From contig NZ_CP126101.1 of assembly GCF_030123245.1 (NCBI RefSeq), positions 4,648,501 to 4,712,500 on the forward strand: a DNA stretch of 64,000 nt. The letters run 5' to 3'. The position numbers and the translations under genes are program-made. Of this stretch, positions 6,576 to 58,469 are shown one piece after another; positions within the stretch are counted from its first letter, which is position 1, and each line of letters starts with the position of its first letter. The notes beneath the pieces are model-generated. The model searched no databases and was not told where the DNA came from. It saw only the letters and a program-made list of their open reading frames with translations. The DNA comes from Lysinibacillus pakistanensis (GTDB lineage: Bacteria; Bacillota; Bacilli; Bacillales_A; Planococcaceae).

Positions 6576-6728
6576 AAAAAGCCTTCTTTAACACAAAGAA
6601 GGCTTTTACGTTTCGTAATTGTTGTTCCTTCTCATCTTCGACCATAGGGTCTTCTGGATTTAGCACCTGACAAAAAGTTGGTTGCTGAAGCGTCATTGGG
6701 CCAGTCCCTCAGCTTCTCTTGATAAGAA
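6576..6728 (-). promoter_or_regulatory. SAM-I (S-box) riboswitch with terminator
   Basis: The minus-strand leader carries the S-box core: GAAGCTGAGGGACTGGCCC, then TGACGCTTCAGCAACC and GGTGCTAAATCC. P1 pairs TTCTTATC (6721-6728) with GATGAGAA (6629-6636). It is followed by a terminator with 13-bp arms (6577-6589 and 6595-6607) and a T run. This fits transcription termination at high SAM, controlling the yitJ-metH operon. Confidence 0.96.
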
Positions 6729-13344: not shown

Positions 13345-13377
13345 AAGCGGTACAATAAATCCTTTATTGTACCGCTT
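13345..13377 (+). terminator. Gene-proximal copy of the yxcD terminator hairpin (33-bp target duplication)
   Basis: Palindrome with 15-nt arms AAGCGGTACAATAAA and TTTATTGTACCGCTT around TCC. The same 33 bp recur exactly at 14048-14080. This copy is followed by CATGTTGTTG (the element end) instead of T residues, so its terminator activity may be reduced. Confidence 0.85.
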
Positions 13378-14047
13378 CATGTTGTTGAAATACTATTAAG
13401 TCAATGAAATCAAGGTGACAAATTAAAAAGTATAGCCCTTTTTCAAAACGAGGGGTTGATCTCCGTTCCGACTGAGTGCTTTCCTGGGGGCGTCCGATGA
13501 GCCGCTTCACTCGCATGCTCGCTCCAGGGTCTCATCTGTGACGCTGAATCCCCGTCTACACTCCAATCAACCACTGCTCATAGTATTTTCATTGGCATTT
13601 CACATAAATGTTTAGTGATAAATTGAAGTCTTAGCCATCACTATTTTTCGCAAAAATGAAGCTGATAACATTTTTCTATGCGAAAGCAATATGTCAGCAA
13701 TAAGTGGCTTTATGTTTATTTATAAAGTAGTTTTATGCACAAAATGTAGGTTGACAGCTATAGAATTGTACTACTATTCTATCCATTTAATGATGGTGAG
13801 TAATATGCTTTTACTTTACTTTTGAAGGAAGAAAATATTTAAAGTTCTACACTATTGCTGATTGGAGTGCAAGGCTACTCGACTCCCGTGGGATAGCGAG
13901 ACAGACGAGACCCTGCACGGAGCGTCAGCGCAGGAAGCGGCTCGTAGCTCGCCCACTGGAAAGCGAGTAGCCTGGAACGGAAATCACCTTTATTTTGGCT
14001 AAATATTCACAAAGGGTCCCTTGACCATTTAGTTTTTCAACACTATG
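13378..14047 (-). mobile_element. Nonautonomous terminator-inserting element, copy 1 (670 bp)
   Basis: Noncoding 670-bp element between two identical 33-bp terminator palindromes. Its ends are imperfect inverted repeats of the form CAT-NN-TGTTGAAA. Inside each end lies a GC-rich arm of roughly 130 bp (13451-13560 and about 13860-13985). The two arms are diverged inverted copies sharing blocks such as GCCGCTTC, AGGGTCTC and ACTCCAATCA. The AT-rich centre has no credible gene. It is about 85 percent similar by eye to 57711-58436 and lies in the opposite orientation. Confidence 0.85.
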
Positions 14048-14080
14048 AAGCGGTACAATAAATCCTTTATTGTACCGCTT
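14048..14080 (+). terminator. Distal copy of the yxcD terminator, with T-tract
   Basis: Second copy of the 33-bp palindrome, here followed by TGTTTATG, the original T-rich tail. It can also serve minus-strand transcripts arriving from the esterase gene. Confidence 0.75.
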
Positions 14081-21230: not shown

Positions 21231-21310
21231 CTAGAATCATCAACAAAGTCAGAAAGATTTCCTTCTATTATCCGTAAATGCGTTCATCCTCGTGGGCATT
21301 ACAACTATCA

Positions 21311-21478
21311 CTAAATGGCAGGTCTCCTGGCTTCGAATCAACGTTTTATGATTACCTTCCCGTTCCTTAAACAGTGGCTAAATCATCATAAAACTCCTCA
21401 TTACAGTTGCGGGACAGCGTCGGATTTTCACCGACTTCCCTTTTAAGTGACACTTTGTATAAGATGTCACACCATTAG
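21311..21478 (-). promoter_or_regulatory. Cobalamin (B12) riboswitch aptamer
   Basis: Minus strand holds AAGGGAAGTCGGTGAAAATC, then GCTGTCCCGCAACTGTAATG, and near the 3' end the B12 box AGCCAGGAGACCTGCC (21317-21332). Closing strands CTAATGG and CCATTTAG can pair. It controls the permease-ATPase operon downstream. Confidence 0.95.
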
Positions 21479-21545
21479 TATCCAAACTATTAAAATTATG
21501 ACGATTCTATCATACATTTAAGTAGTTAGTCTATTAATTATCATT

Positions 21546-25296: not shown

Positions 25297-25331
25297 AAGT
25301 CCTGTAAGTATACCTAGTACTTACAGGACTT
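25297..25331 (-). terminator. Distal terminator copy with T-tract (35-bp target duplication)
   Basis: Palindrome with 14-nt arms AAGTCCTGTAAGTA and TACTTACAGGACTT around a 7-nt loop. On the minus strand it is followed by TTTAAC, keeping the original T-tract. Identical to 25711-25745. Confidence 0.8.
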
Positions 25332-25710
25332 CATAGTGTTGAAAAACTAAATGGTCAAGGGACCCTTTGTGAATATTTAGCCAAAATAAAGGTGATTTCC
25401 GTTCCAGGCTACTCGCTTTCCTGTGGGCGAGCGACGAGCCGCTTCCTGCGCTGACGCTCCGTGCAGGGTCTCGTCTGTCTCGCTATGAACTGCACCCAAA
25501 ATATTGGACTTAAAAAATCTAATATAAGGGGGTGCAGTTCACAGCGTCACAGATGAGACCCTGGAGCGAGCATGCGAGTGAAGCGGCTCATCGGACGCCC
25601 CCAGGAAAGCACTCAGTCGGAACGGAGATCAACCCCTCGTTTTGAAAAAGGGCTATACTTTTTAATTTGTCACCTTGATTTCATTGACTTAATAGTATTT
25701 CAACAACATG
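25332..25710 (+). mobile_element. Nonautonomous terminator-inserting element, copy 2 (379 bp, internally deleted)
   Basis: Starts CATAGTGTTGAAAAAC and ends TTTCAACAACATG, the same ends as the other copies. Both GC-rich arms are kept, but the AT-rich centre is missing. The deletion point holds a 56-bp fragment with IS3-type ends (25486-25541). No coding potential. Confidence 0.85.
25486..25541. repeat. 56-bp miniature IS3-family-like remnant inside copy 2
   Basis: Begins TGAACTGCACCC and ends GGGGTGCAGTTCA: a 12-bp perfect inverted repeat with TG...CA termini, typical of IS3/IS150-group ends. Only 31 nt separate the repeats, so it is either a deletion product or a tiny MITE. Confidence 0.6.
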
Positions 25711-25745
25711 AAGTCCTGTAAGTATACCTAGTACTTACAGGACTT
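25711..25745 (-). terminator. Gene-proximal copy of the terminator hairpin
   Basis: Second exact 35-bp copy, directly after the reductase gene. On the minus strand it runs into CATGTTGTTG of the element instead of a T-tract. Confidence 0.8.
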
Positions 25746-56092: not shown

Positions 56093-56125
56093 TAGCAACA
56101 GAAAACTATTCGTTCTCTGTTGCTA
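56093..56125 (+). terminator. Gene-proximal copy of the ydiL-like gene terminator (33-bp target duplication)
   Basis: Arms TAGCAACAGA and TCTGTTGCTA. An identical 33-bp copy lies at 58437-58469. Here it runs into CATAGTGTTG instead of T residues. The stretch 55937-56092 before it shows no gene. Confidence 0.8.
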
Positions 56126-57677
56126 CATAGTGTTGAAATAAGATTATGTCAATGAAAATGCCACAAATTTTTTATGGCATTTTTATGATTCTATTTGTTT
56201 TTTTAAACAGATTCTTCTATAATTTCATGTGTTAGGTGTAGACCAATTTGCTTGAGTGAGCGGAGTTTGGTCCACTTTTTCAAGTTTTGTATGATGGCTG
56301 TCATCAAAACTTGTCTTTTTACTTTTTGGACTCCACGGTAACGCGCATAGCGTAAACCGTGGAGTTCTTTACTATGTGCGAAGCTAAGTTCGACAGTGGC
56401 TGGACGTACAGAACGAAGGATTTTCCCCCGATACGACAAGCGTTGCCCTCGTAATTGATTATAAATTTCTTGGTGAATCGAAATTCGTAACACACGGTCT
56501 TCGTTTTCCCTTTTTACAAAAGGGCAGAATTGACAACTTCCTTTTGGTGGTTTGAATTCGTGATAGCCCTGTCGATTCGTTGTTTTATAATAAAATGGTA
56601 CACCACATGGACAGGCATAGAGATCCTCATTCACCTGTTTAAACTGATAACGGCGACAATTCGGGTGGTCCTTCGTTGCGAATCGTCGATAAGACATATA
56701 AACGAAGAATTTCCTTTCAAACAATCTTCGGGCAAGAGGGGCATTGTAGTAACCTGAGTCGAGCGCTATTTCCTTCGCGTATTGCCCAAATAATTGCTTT
56801 AATTGATCCACTTGTCCTACTAATTTACGATGCCCTGGTACATTCGCAGCTGTGACATCTGTCGCAATGATAAAGTTATGTAACGAATCCACAATACGGT
56901 GCTCAAAATACGCAAAGCGCCCACGTTCATCATGTTTAACAGACAAACGTGCTTCCGGATCCACAGGGCTACTATTTGTTCGCTTTTCTTCTACCTTTGG
57001 CTCTTTTGTCATAAGAAGTTTCTTCCCATGACGCGCACGGTGTTCATTAATAAGCGTTAAATCATCCTCTTTTTCTTCTATGATTTTCTCTTCAATCTGT
57101 ACGTTACGCACCCGTTTATTGGCATTCGCTTTTAATTCCGTTTCATCTGCCACCCATGTTTCGTTCGCAATAAATCCTTCATCGTGAATGGAAAGAAGAC
57201 AATGTTGAAAAAGTTCCTCCCAAAACGCCACACCCTGCAGACGTTGCGAAAGAAACTTAGAGATGGTTGAGTGATCTGGAATTTTTTCTGTAGGAGAAAT
57301 GCCTAAAAACCAGCGATACGTTGCGTGTTGCTTCACTTGCTTACACGTAAAACGAACTGAACGAAAGCCTTCTAAATACTGAATCAATAAGATTTTCACC
57401 AACATGATCGGATCTTTTGTTGGGCGACCAATACTGTATGGATAAAAAACTTCCAATTGTTTCGATACAAAATTCCAGTCCATCACTTGATCCATCTTCA
57501 CTAACTGATGCGAGGGGTCGTACATCATCTCGTAGAACTTTCGATTCTCTTCAATCTCTCTTCTGGAGTATGTAACGTACATAAAAAATCCCCTCACTTC
57601 ACTTATTTCATTAATGAGAGGATTTTATTGGAATGTTCACATTTTGTCTATAGACGATTTTGTTTTTCAACAGAATG
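56126..57677 (-). mobile_element. IS1182-family insertion sequence (1552 bp)
   Basis: Begins CATAGTGTTGAAATAAG and ends TTTTTCAACAGAATG, imperfect inverted repeats with the CAT-NN-TGTTGAAA core. It contains one transposase gene and a small internal hairpin (56155-56182) past its stop. The left end shares TGTTGAAATA and ATTATGTCAATGAAA with the right end of the nonautonomous elements. Flanked by a terminator palindrome on each side, but two different ones. Confidence 0.88.
56203..57582 (-). CDS. IS1182-family transposase
   Basis: 459 residues, an intact DDE transposase. N-terminal DUF772-type domain (MVLVKILLIQYLEG-like segment and RWFLGISPTEKIPDHSTISK), acidic residues in WVADETELKANANK and EIALDSGYYNAPL, and the C-terminal glutamate in ATVELSFAHSKELHG. 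A four-cysteine patch (CPCG...CQFCPF) precedes the last motif. I chose the ATG at 57582 after GAGGGG. Probably active; it could also act on the related nonautonomous elements. Confidence 0.92.
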   Translation of the reverse strand: MYVTYSRREIEENRKFYEMMYDPSHQLVKMDQVMDWNFVSKQLEVFYPYSIGRPTKDPIMLVKILLIQYLEGFRSVRFTCKQVKQHATYRWFLGISPTEKIPDHSTISKFLSQRLQGVAFWEELFQHCLLSIHDEGFIANETWVADETELKANANKRVRNVQIEEKIIEEKEDDLTLINEHRARHGKKLLMTKEPKVEEKRTNSSPVDPEARLSVKHDERGRFAYFEHRIVDSLHNFIIATDVTAANVPGHRKLVGQVDQLKQLFGQYAKEIALDSGYYNAPLARRLFERKFFVYMSYRRFATKDHPNCRRYQFKQVNEDLYACPCGVPFYYKTTNRQGYHEFKPPKGSCQFCPFVKRENEDRVLRISIHQEIYNQLRGQRLSYRGKILRSVRPATVELSFAHSKELHGLRYARYRGVQKVKRQVLMTAIIQNLKKWTKLRSLKQIGLHLTHEIIEESV

Positions 57678-57710
57678 AAAGTAGTATGCTGATTATTAGC
57701 ATACTATTTT
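57678..57710. terminator. Orphan 33-bp terminator palindrome between the IS and copy 3
   Basis: Arms AAAGTAGTATGCT and AGCATACTATTTT (one G-T pair) with a 7-nt loop, 33 bp in all. It exactly fills the gap between two element ends and differs from the flanking terminators, so it probably came from an earlier insertion site. Confidence 0.75.
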
Positions 57711-58436
57711 CATAGTGTTGAAAAACTAAATGGTCAAGGATACCTTTGTGAATATTTAGTCAAAATGAAGATGATTTCCGTTCCAGGCTACTCGCTTTGT
57801 TGCTGACGCTTCGCTTTCGCACAGAGCAAAGCTTCCTGTGGGCGAGCGACGAGCCGCTTCCTGCGCTGACGCTCCGTGCAGGGTCTCATCTGTCTCGCTA
57901 TCCCACGGGAGTCGAGTAGCCTTGCACTCCAATCAGCAATAGTGTAGAACTTTAAATATTTTCTTCCCTCAAAAGTAAAATAAAAACATGTTACTCACCA
58001 TCATTAAATGGATAGAATAGTGGTACAATTCTATAGCTGTTAACCTACATTCTATGCATAAAACTACTTTTTCATTTTACATAAAAAGCCACTTATTACT
58101 GTCGCTCTGCATTCACATAGAAAAATGTTATCAAAGCTCCATTTTTGCACAATATAGTGATGGCTAAGACTTCAAATTTATCACTATTAATTTGTGTGAA
58201 ATGCCAGAAGAAAATACTATGAGCAGTGGTTGATTGGAGTGTAGACTGAGTGACTCCTCGGGGATTCAGCGTCACAGATGAGACCCTGGAGCGAGCAGCG
58301 CGAGTGAAGCGGCTCCATCGGACGCCCCCAGGAAAGCACTCAGTCGGAACGGAGATCAACCCCTCGTTTTGAAAAAGGACTATACTTTTAATTTGTCACC
58401 TTGATTTCATTGACATAATAGTATTTCAACAACATG
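57711..58436 (+). mobile_element. Nonautonomous terminator-inserting element, copy 3 (726 bp)
   Basis: Begins CATAGTGTTGAAAAACTAAA and ends TTTCAACAACATG. Full-length relative of copy 1 with both GC-rich arms and the AT-rich centre. It carries an extra ~36 bp near 57796-57831 containing TGACGCTTCGCTTTCG. No credible gene. Confidence 0.85.
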
Positions 58437-58469
58437 TAGCAACAGAAAACTATTCGTTCTCTGTTGCTA
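58437..58469 (+). terminator. Distal copy of the ydiL-like gene terminator, with T-tract
   Basis: Identical to 56093-56125 but followed by TTTTTTTATTTT, the original tail. The following 58470-58673 is AT-rich leader of the next gene. Confidence 0.8.

Follow-up and report, generated by a model that had tools for sequence, protein, structure and literature searches.

Whole target hairpins as base-exact direct repeats of IS1182-family elements in Lysinibacillus pakistanensis, and the outcomes at similar targets in related transposase clades

The window analyzed here, a stretch of 64,000 nucleotides from contig NZ_CP126101.1 of Lysinibacillus pakistanensis, contains a 670-bp element lying between two exact copies of a 33-bp palindrome. 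The original prediction had described this arrangement, together with like ones at 25297-25745 (35 bp) and 56093-58469 (33 bp), and all three are present to the base. This raises the question of how a mobile element chooses such a target, by its sequence or by its ability to form a hairpin, and how the entire hairpin comes to be duplicated. The features concerned are as follows (strand in brackets).

13345..13377 (no strand): left target hairpin of element 1, 33 bp, resembling a terminator and following the DUF2653 gene; sister species have it once
13378..14047 (+): element 1, non-autonomous (MITE-like), 670 bp, tips CATGTTGTTGAAAT.. / CATAGTGTTGAAAA..
14048..14080 (no strand): right copy of this hairpin, 33 bp, exact match to the left one
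25297..25331 (no strand): left target hairpin of element 2, 35 bp
25332..25710 (-): element 2, copy of the MITE-like element with an internal deletion, 379 bp
25711..25745 (no strand): right copy of the 35-bp hairpin; single in sister genome G021
56093..56125 (no strand): left target hairpin of element 3, 33 bp; single in genome G002
56126-58436: element 3 as a whole (composite), between exact 33-bp copies
56126..57677 (-): autonomous IS1182-family insertion sequence of element 3, 1552 bp, tips CATAGTGTTGAAAT.. / CATTCTGTTGAAAA..
56203..57597 (-): IS1182-family DDE transposase (tnp), 464 aa from GTG / 459 aa from ATG; NF033551, DUF772, DDE_Tnp_1_6
57678..57710 (no strand): inner hairpin of element 3, 33 bp, separating the IS from the MITE-like element
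57711..58436 (-): second half of element 3, MITE-like element, 726 bp
58437..58469 (no strand): right copy of the 33-bp hairpin of element 3, bounding the composite as one unit

The flanking repeat pairs are exact for all three elements (33, 35 and 33 bp). The repeats of elements 1, 2 and 3 fold end to end with -18.6, -20.8 and -15.0 kcal/mol (RNA parameters) and folding z-scores of -9.0, -6.3 and -6.8, and for each repeat none of 200 shuffles folded as well. The gene before the hairpin of element 1 encodes a DUF2653 protein, and its stop codon ends 7 nt upstream of the hairpin. Rfam gave no match at gathering thresholds in the region of element 1.

A hint at IS1182-type elements in the original prediction was right: the window transposase reaches 289.8 bits against the IS1182 family model NF033551 (cut-off 270), which places it in the family, and its gene is bounded by terminal inverted repeats with the tips CATAGTGTTGAAA / CATTCTGTTGAAA. 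In an alignment of 22 transposases from two clades, residues D146, D275 and E398 do not vary and presumably represent the catalytic DDE residues. The structure model of the transposase (mean pLDDT 74, built with 17 sequences) and its best Foldseek match, piggyBac 6x67 (E 1.5e-5, TM 0.27), only agree with a predicted DDE-type fold. The genome (5.25 Mb, one contig) carries three full IS copies of 1552 bp and one partial copy; the non-autonomous element is present about 40 times. MITE and IS have common tips, CATNNTGTTGAAA, with 92 genome matches vs. 9 for the reversed control pattern, and no frame of at least 100 aa was found inside the 670-bp copy. The window element is a non-autonomous relative of the IS1182-family IS.

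Composite copies connect the two more closely. Element 3 has the order hairpin-IS-other hairpin-MITE-hairpin, and its outer bounds, the end of an IS on one side and that of a MITE on the other, share a single 33-bp hairpin repeat; thus, it moved as a unit. In copy L055, the order is hairpin-MITE-hairpin-IS-hairpin with three identical hairpins, and its MITE part also contains another transposase gene. Two IS copies of another locus pair (L161/L162, one genome), about 5.9 kb apart from start to start, have a common outer 26-bp hairpin. Since the outer ends of two different elements stand under one hairpin repeat, the MITE ends are tied to the window transposase, and this anatomy supports the IS1182 transposase as the probable mobilizer of the MITE. 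The inner hairpin of element 3 is identical to the 33 bp flanking a copy at genome positions 369813-370586 (also the hairpin around L038). No single source copy of the MITE half could be identified, as the inner hairpin is that of L038 but the body is closest to L036 (98.3% vs. 90.7% to L038).

To what extent the arrangement holds for other copies was assessed in 55 fetched genome regions, from which 43 insertion units were analyzed; 12 loci with a partial IS or lone tips (L079-L090) were left out. The number of element copies is a lower bound, as 40 of 95 candidates were scored and copies with decayed tips may be missed. An ungapped duplicated hairpin of 18-49 bp (median 31) flanks 37 of the 43 units, as the original prediction would have it for most copies; 26 of these 37 pairs are exact copies, and all 37 hairpins differ from one another in sequence. 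Three further units (L037, L049, L052) have a diverged duplicated hairpin in gapped alignment, and no matching hairpin pair was found in the remaining three of the 43 (L075, L077, L078). L078 is a full IS copy with two different end hairpins, about 5 kb from the truncated IS L079, possibly a rearrangement between copies. In 32 of the 37 units, the two terminal bases of the repeat make up the outermost base pair. A net stem of at least 7 bp is reached by 35 of 37 repeats vs. 13 of 860 equal-length control windows from the same loci, where the repeats were preselected for a net stem of at least 5, a value which 70 of the 860 controls reach. According to crude frames in 400-base flanks, no open frame of at least 150 codons contains any of the 37 sites, and at 26 of them a long frame ends within 150 nt. 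Chance palindromes were rejected as an explanation, with control windows and mismatched flank pairs far below the observed hairpin duplication, and so was a fixed target sequence, given 37 different hairpins. The claim that hairpin structure and not a fixed sequence is recognized is thereby supported.

Joined flanks of 12 sites were queried against 32 genomes of the genus (the window's own included). Tandem hairpins without the element in sister strains would have spoken against the original prediction; instead, among the matches listed, in 17 of 20 fetched regions the alignment runs through the site with a single hairpin and without the element, and a single-hairpin empty allele exists at 10 of the 12 queried sites, including all three in the window. 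Of the remaining three regions, L112 has the element, L113 has a different insert and L122 gave no clear result. For L038 and L048, no full-span match was present among the matches listed.

Next to the window clade, relatives were compared using 107 IS1182-type loci, three of them from the window genome besides L214; 106 gave a transposase frame (L104 none). They were scored by profile search with a profile of the window-clade (A1) transposases, taking 150 bits as the dividing score. A hairpin repeat is found in 27 of 56 loci scoring at least 150 bits and in none of the 50 below (counting L192, which has no score). In 280 mismatched flank pairs no hairpin repeat occurred, and one non-palindromic repeat (score 31) did. 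The 29 of 56 high-scoring relatives which were not flagged include some that are truncated, at contig ends or rearranged; among them, L070 is explained by its outer ends, L103 is positive in a wider search and L127 has a 7-bp repeat only.

IS1272-like elements (tips GAGGCTGGGACA) are without hairpin repeats. At all four sites queried (two elements, two genera), sister species have a hairpin in place of the insertion; 10 of the 15 region alignments are clean (that of L183 with a diverged right flank), two have another insert at one locus and three are uninformative. A third clade (tips such as GAGGGCACTGAAAAA), with copy L214 in the window's genome, has repeats of 5-10 bp. Its 51 loci gave 41 rows, since 7 are without paired tips and, of the 44 left, 3 have no repeat of at least 5 bp; L255 and L279 are one place counted twice, and neither attains 8 bp. 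The repeat lies between stem arms of net at least 8 bp in 14 of 41 rows vs. 130 of 1640 permuted pairs, so that permuted terminator flanks pair fairly often too (8%); at net 10 bp the numbers are 12 of 41 vs. 46 of 1640, and with one copy per IS 13 of 26 attain 8 bp. No flanking stem of 8 bp was found in 27 of the 41 rows, and therefore loop targeting is a preference and no rule. Sister genomes have intact hairpins at L240, L290 and L294 (3 of 6 sites queried), one sister genome has, at the L214 site, a short MITE that shares the tips and the loop of L214, and L289 and L292 were not aligned.

In a tree of 37 transposases, each of the three outcome groups forms one side of a branch, with support (ultrafast bootstrap/SH-aLRT) of 93/92 for whole-hairpin duplication, 100/100 for replacement and 100/99 for the loop clade. 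The three outcomes need two changes on this tree, which is the minimum; 7 of 9 replacing and 3 of 15 loop rows are labeled by tips and clade, without a tested empty site or stem, and the tree program warned that the long branches L209 and L140 meet. A previous 39-row tree, limited to the duplication and replacement groups, required one change. Between the first conserved Asp and the next invariant Asp, three additional blocks of 9, 35 and 24 columns distinguish the replacing transposases. As these sequence comparisons show, with support from sister-species sites for each clade, the window clade duplicates the whole hairpin, the IS1272-like clade replaces it, and the third clade duplicates 5-10 bp, often in the loop. 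At the site of window element 1 in genome G021 (L113, 195-395), a small insert with IS1272-like tips replaces the expected hairpin by eye, as if this terminator had been struck by two clades.

IS elements of other families target REP palindromes, a defined repeated sequence and not any hairpin; the window element resembles them in its palindromic targets. IS1272/TnSha1 have a transposase of the same family and likewise use hairpin or terminator targets without sequence consensus, but they delete the hairpin wholly or partly and leave no direct repeat, whereas the window element duplicates the whole hairpin (PMC5678879, PMC4923244). With duplication at 37 of 43 units, the window element falls outside the IS1272 type, which is defined by a deleted hairpin and no target repeat. 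Hairpin deletion was reported by Furi (2016; PMC4923244), and Wan (2017; PMC5678879) proposed replacement for IS1272, with whole-hairpin (Figure 13 legend) and loop-only duplication drawn as hypothetical alternatives; three IS1272 copies had non-palindromic targets (PMC5678879, PMC4923244). Insertions of ISCbo5 / ISBma2-type IS1182 elements (Clostridium, Burkholderia) are described as lying, all but one, at gene-end hairpins, with a “surrounding hairpin” (PMC3098183). This is like the sites of our element, but base-exact duplication is not stated in the accessible part of that text (PMC3098183). IS1182 is also described as over-represented between convergent genes (PMC9208149). ISPse1, ISCaa15 and MITEPye1 have the family name in common, some with MITEs, but 4-bp target repeats are reported for them, unlike the hairpin-length duplication of the window element (PMC3281130, PMC3196728, PMC11578231). 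The view that no description of such an element is known was thus correct in part: hairpin targeting by the IS1182 family is published and whole-hairpin duplication has been drawn as hypothetical (PMC5678879, PMC4923244, PMC3098183), but a report of base-exact duplication was not found in the portions accessible. In published reports outside subscription papers, supplements and ISfinder, neither base-exact whole-hairpin duplication nor a clade-by-clade split was found. Hence, hairpin-targeting IS1182 elements are already known; new is whole-hairpin duplication as an outcome, confined, among the elements examined, to one clade beside two others.

How could a hairpin be duplicated as a whole? 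We consider it highly probable that the non-autonomous element is moved by the IS1182-family DDE transposase (56203-57597), which would choose its target by shape, and that the whole hairpin is copied by fill-in. The transposase would select a palindrome able to extrude as a hairpin or cruciform before attack, in most cases directly behind a gene. It would then link the element's 3′ ends to the cruciform's two 5′ feet, which are 18-49 bp apart in sequence but would be neighbors in space. Repair fill-in would copy the entire hairpin, so that the direct repeat would equal the hairpin at any length. Which strands get joined at the cruciform would decide the outcome.

That the target is a single-stranded hairpin (e.g., on the lagging strand of forks or in transcriptionally opened DNA) and not a duplex cruciform seems unlikely to us. 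Many struck hairpins lie just after genes, where transcription opens DNA (the 26 of 37 sites mentioned, by crude frames), and the data show just that pairing matters. However, single-stranded targets predict an orientation bias, and none is apparent by chromosome half (13:9 vs. 13:6, p 0.75, 41 of 42 units, presuming the contig start to be near the origin), a lack which fits the expectation for a two-strand target; in addition, the clean direct repeat of the whole hairpin suggests joins on both strands. It is quite improbable that the transposase reads a short motif common to terminators (A-tract, stem foot, T-tract) and duplicates the hairpin merely as what lies between motifs. All 37 repeats begin with A or T, 33 of them with A, as such a motif would have it, but repeat length tracks hairpin length from 18 to 49 bp, A-poor/T-poor sites are used too (L042 and L058, with at most 2 of 8 A before and at most 2 of 8 T after), and sister clades cut similar targets at the stem foot or in the loop.

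We can hardly give credence to hairpins that belong to the element and are carried along, or to tandem hairpins predating the insertion. The inner hairpin of element 3 did travel with the composite or got trapped in it, but 37 different hairpins are involved and, among the matches listed, at 10 of 12 queried sites sister species have the hairpin once and lack the element; where such an empty allele exists, carried or pre-existing tandem hairpins are refuted. 

Target choice by DNA shape and not sequence is an unusual, poorly understood mode. It is likely that one family with one DNA-shape target, the extruded hairpin or cruciform, has evolved three stable resolutions, one per clade: replacement of the hairpin, duplication of its entirety and duplication of the loop alone. 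If true, the strand pair attacked at a four-way junction would be a heritable enzyme property, and all three pathways drawn by Wan (2017) would be real. Related enzymes with three outcomes on a like target make the question of strand joining testable by domain swaps between clades. Duplication of a terminator keeps the terminator of the upstream gene and may shield the element from read-through, which probably explains the tolerance of such insertions. The 5′ terminators upstream of ISBma2-type transposases were reported as intrinsic IS parts, and some of them could be duplicated host terminators (PMC2965389).

Some minor observations concern the bodies of the elements. Long element copies with other inserts are L041, L043, L053, L054, L055, L061 and L065; the inserts encode a DDE transposase, an integrase-core transposase and a group II intron reverse transcriptase (L065), with one protein per kind searched. 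The middle of element 2 contains a 56-bp insert (25486-25541) with inverted ends TGAACTGCACCC / GGGTGCAGTTCA, which resembles another small mobile repeat. GC-rich modules are located near each MITE end in element 1 (13450-13572 and 13859-13988); strong folding is seen for the latter (z -3.6 on one strand and -4.1 on the other) but not for the former (0.5, -1.1). Of the 32 genomes of the genus, 31 contain partial matches to the 670-bp element, in many cases just to a GC-rich module, and the third-clade copies L295-L300 sit, by eye, in repeats similar to these modules. Elsewhere in the window, a SAM riboswitch (6629-6728) and a cobalamin riboswitch (21300-21491) were detected.
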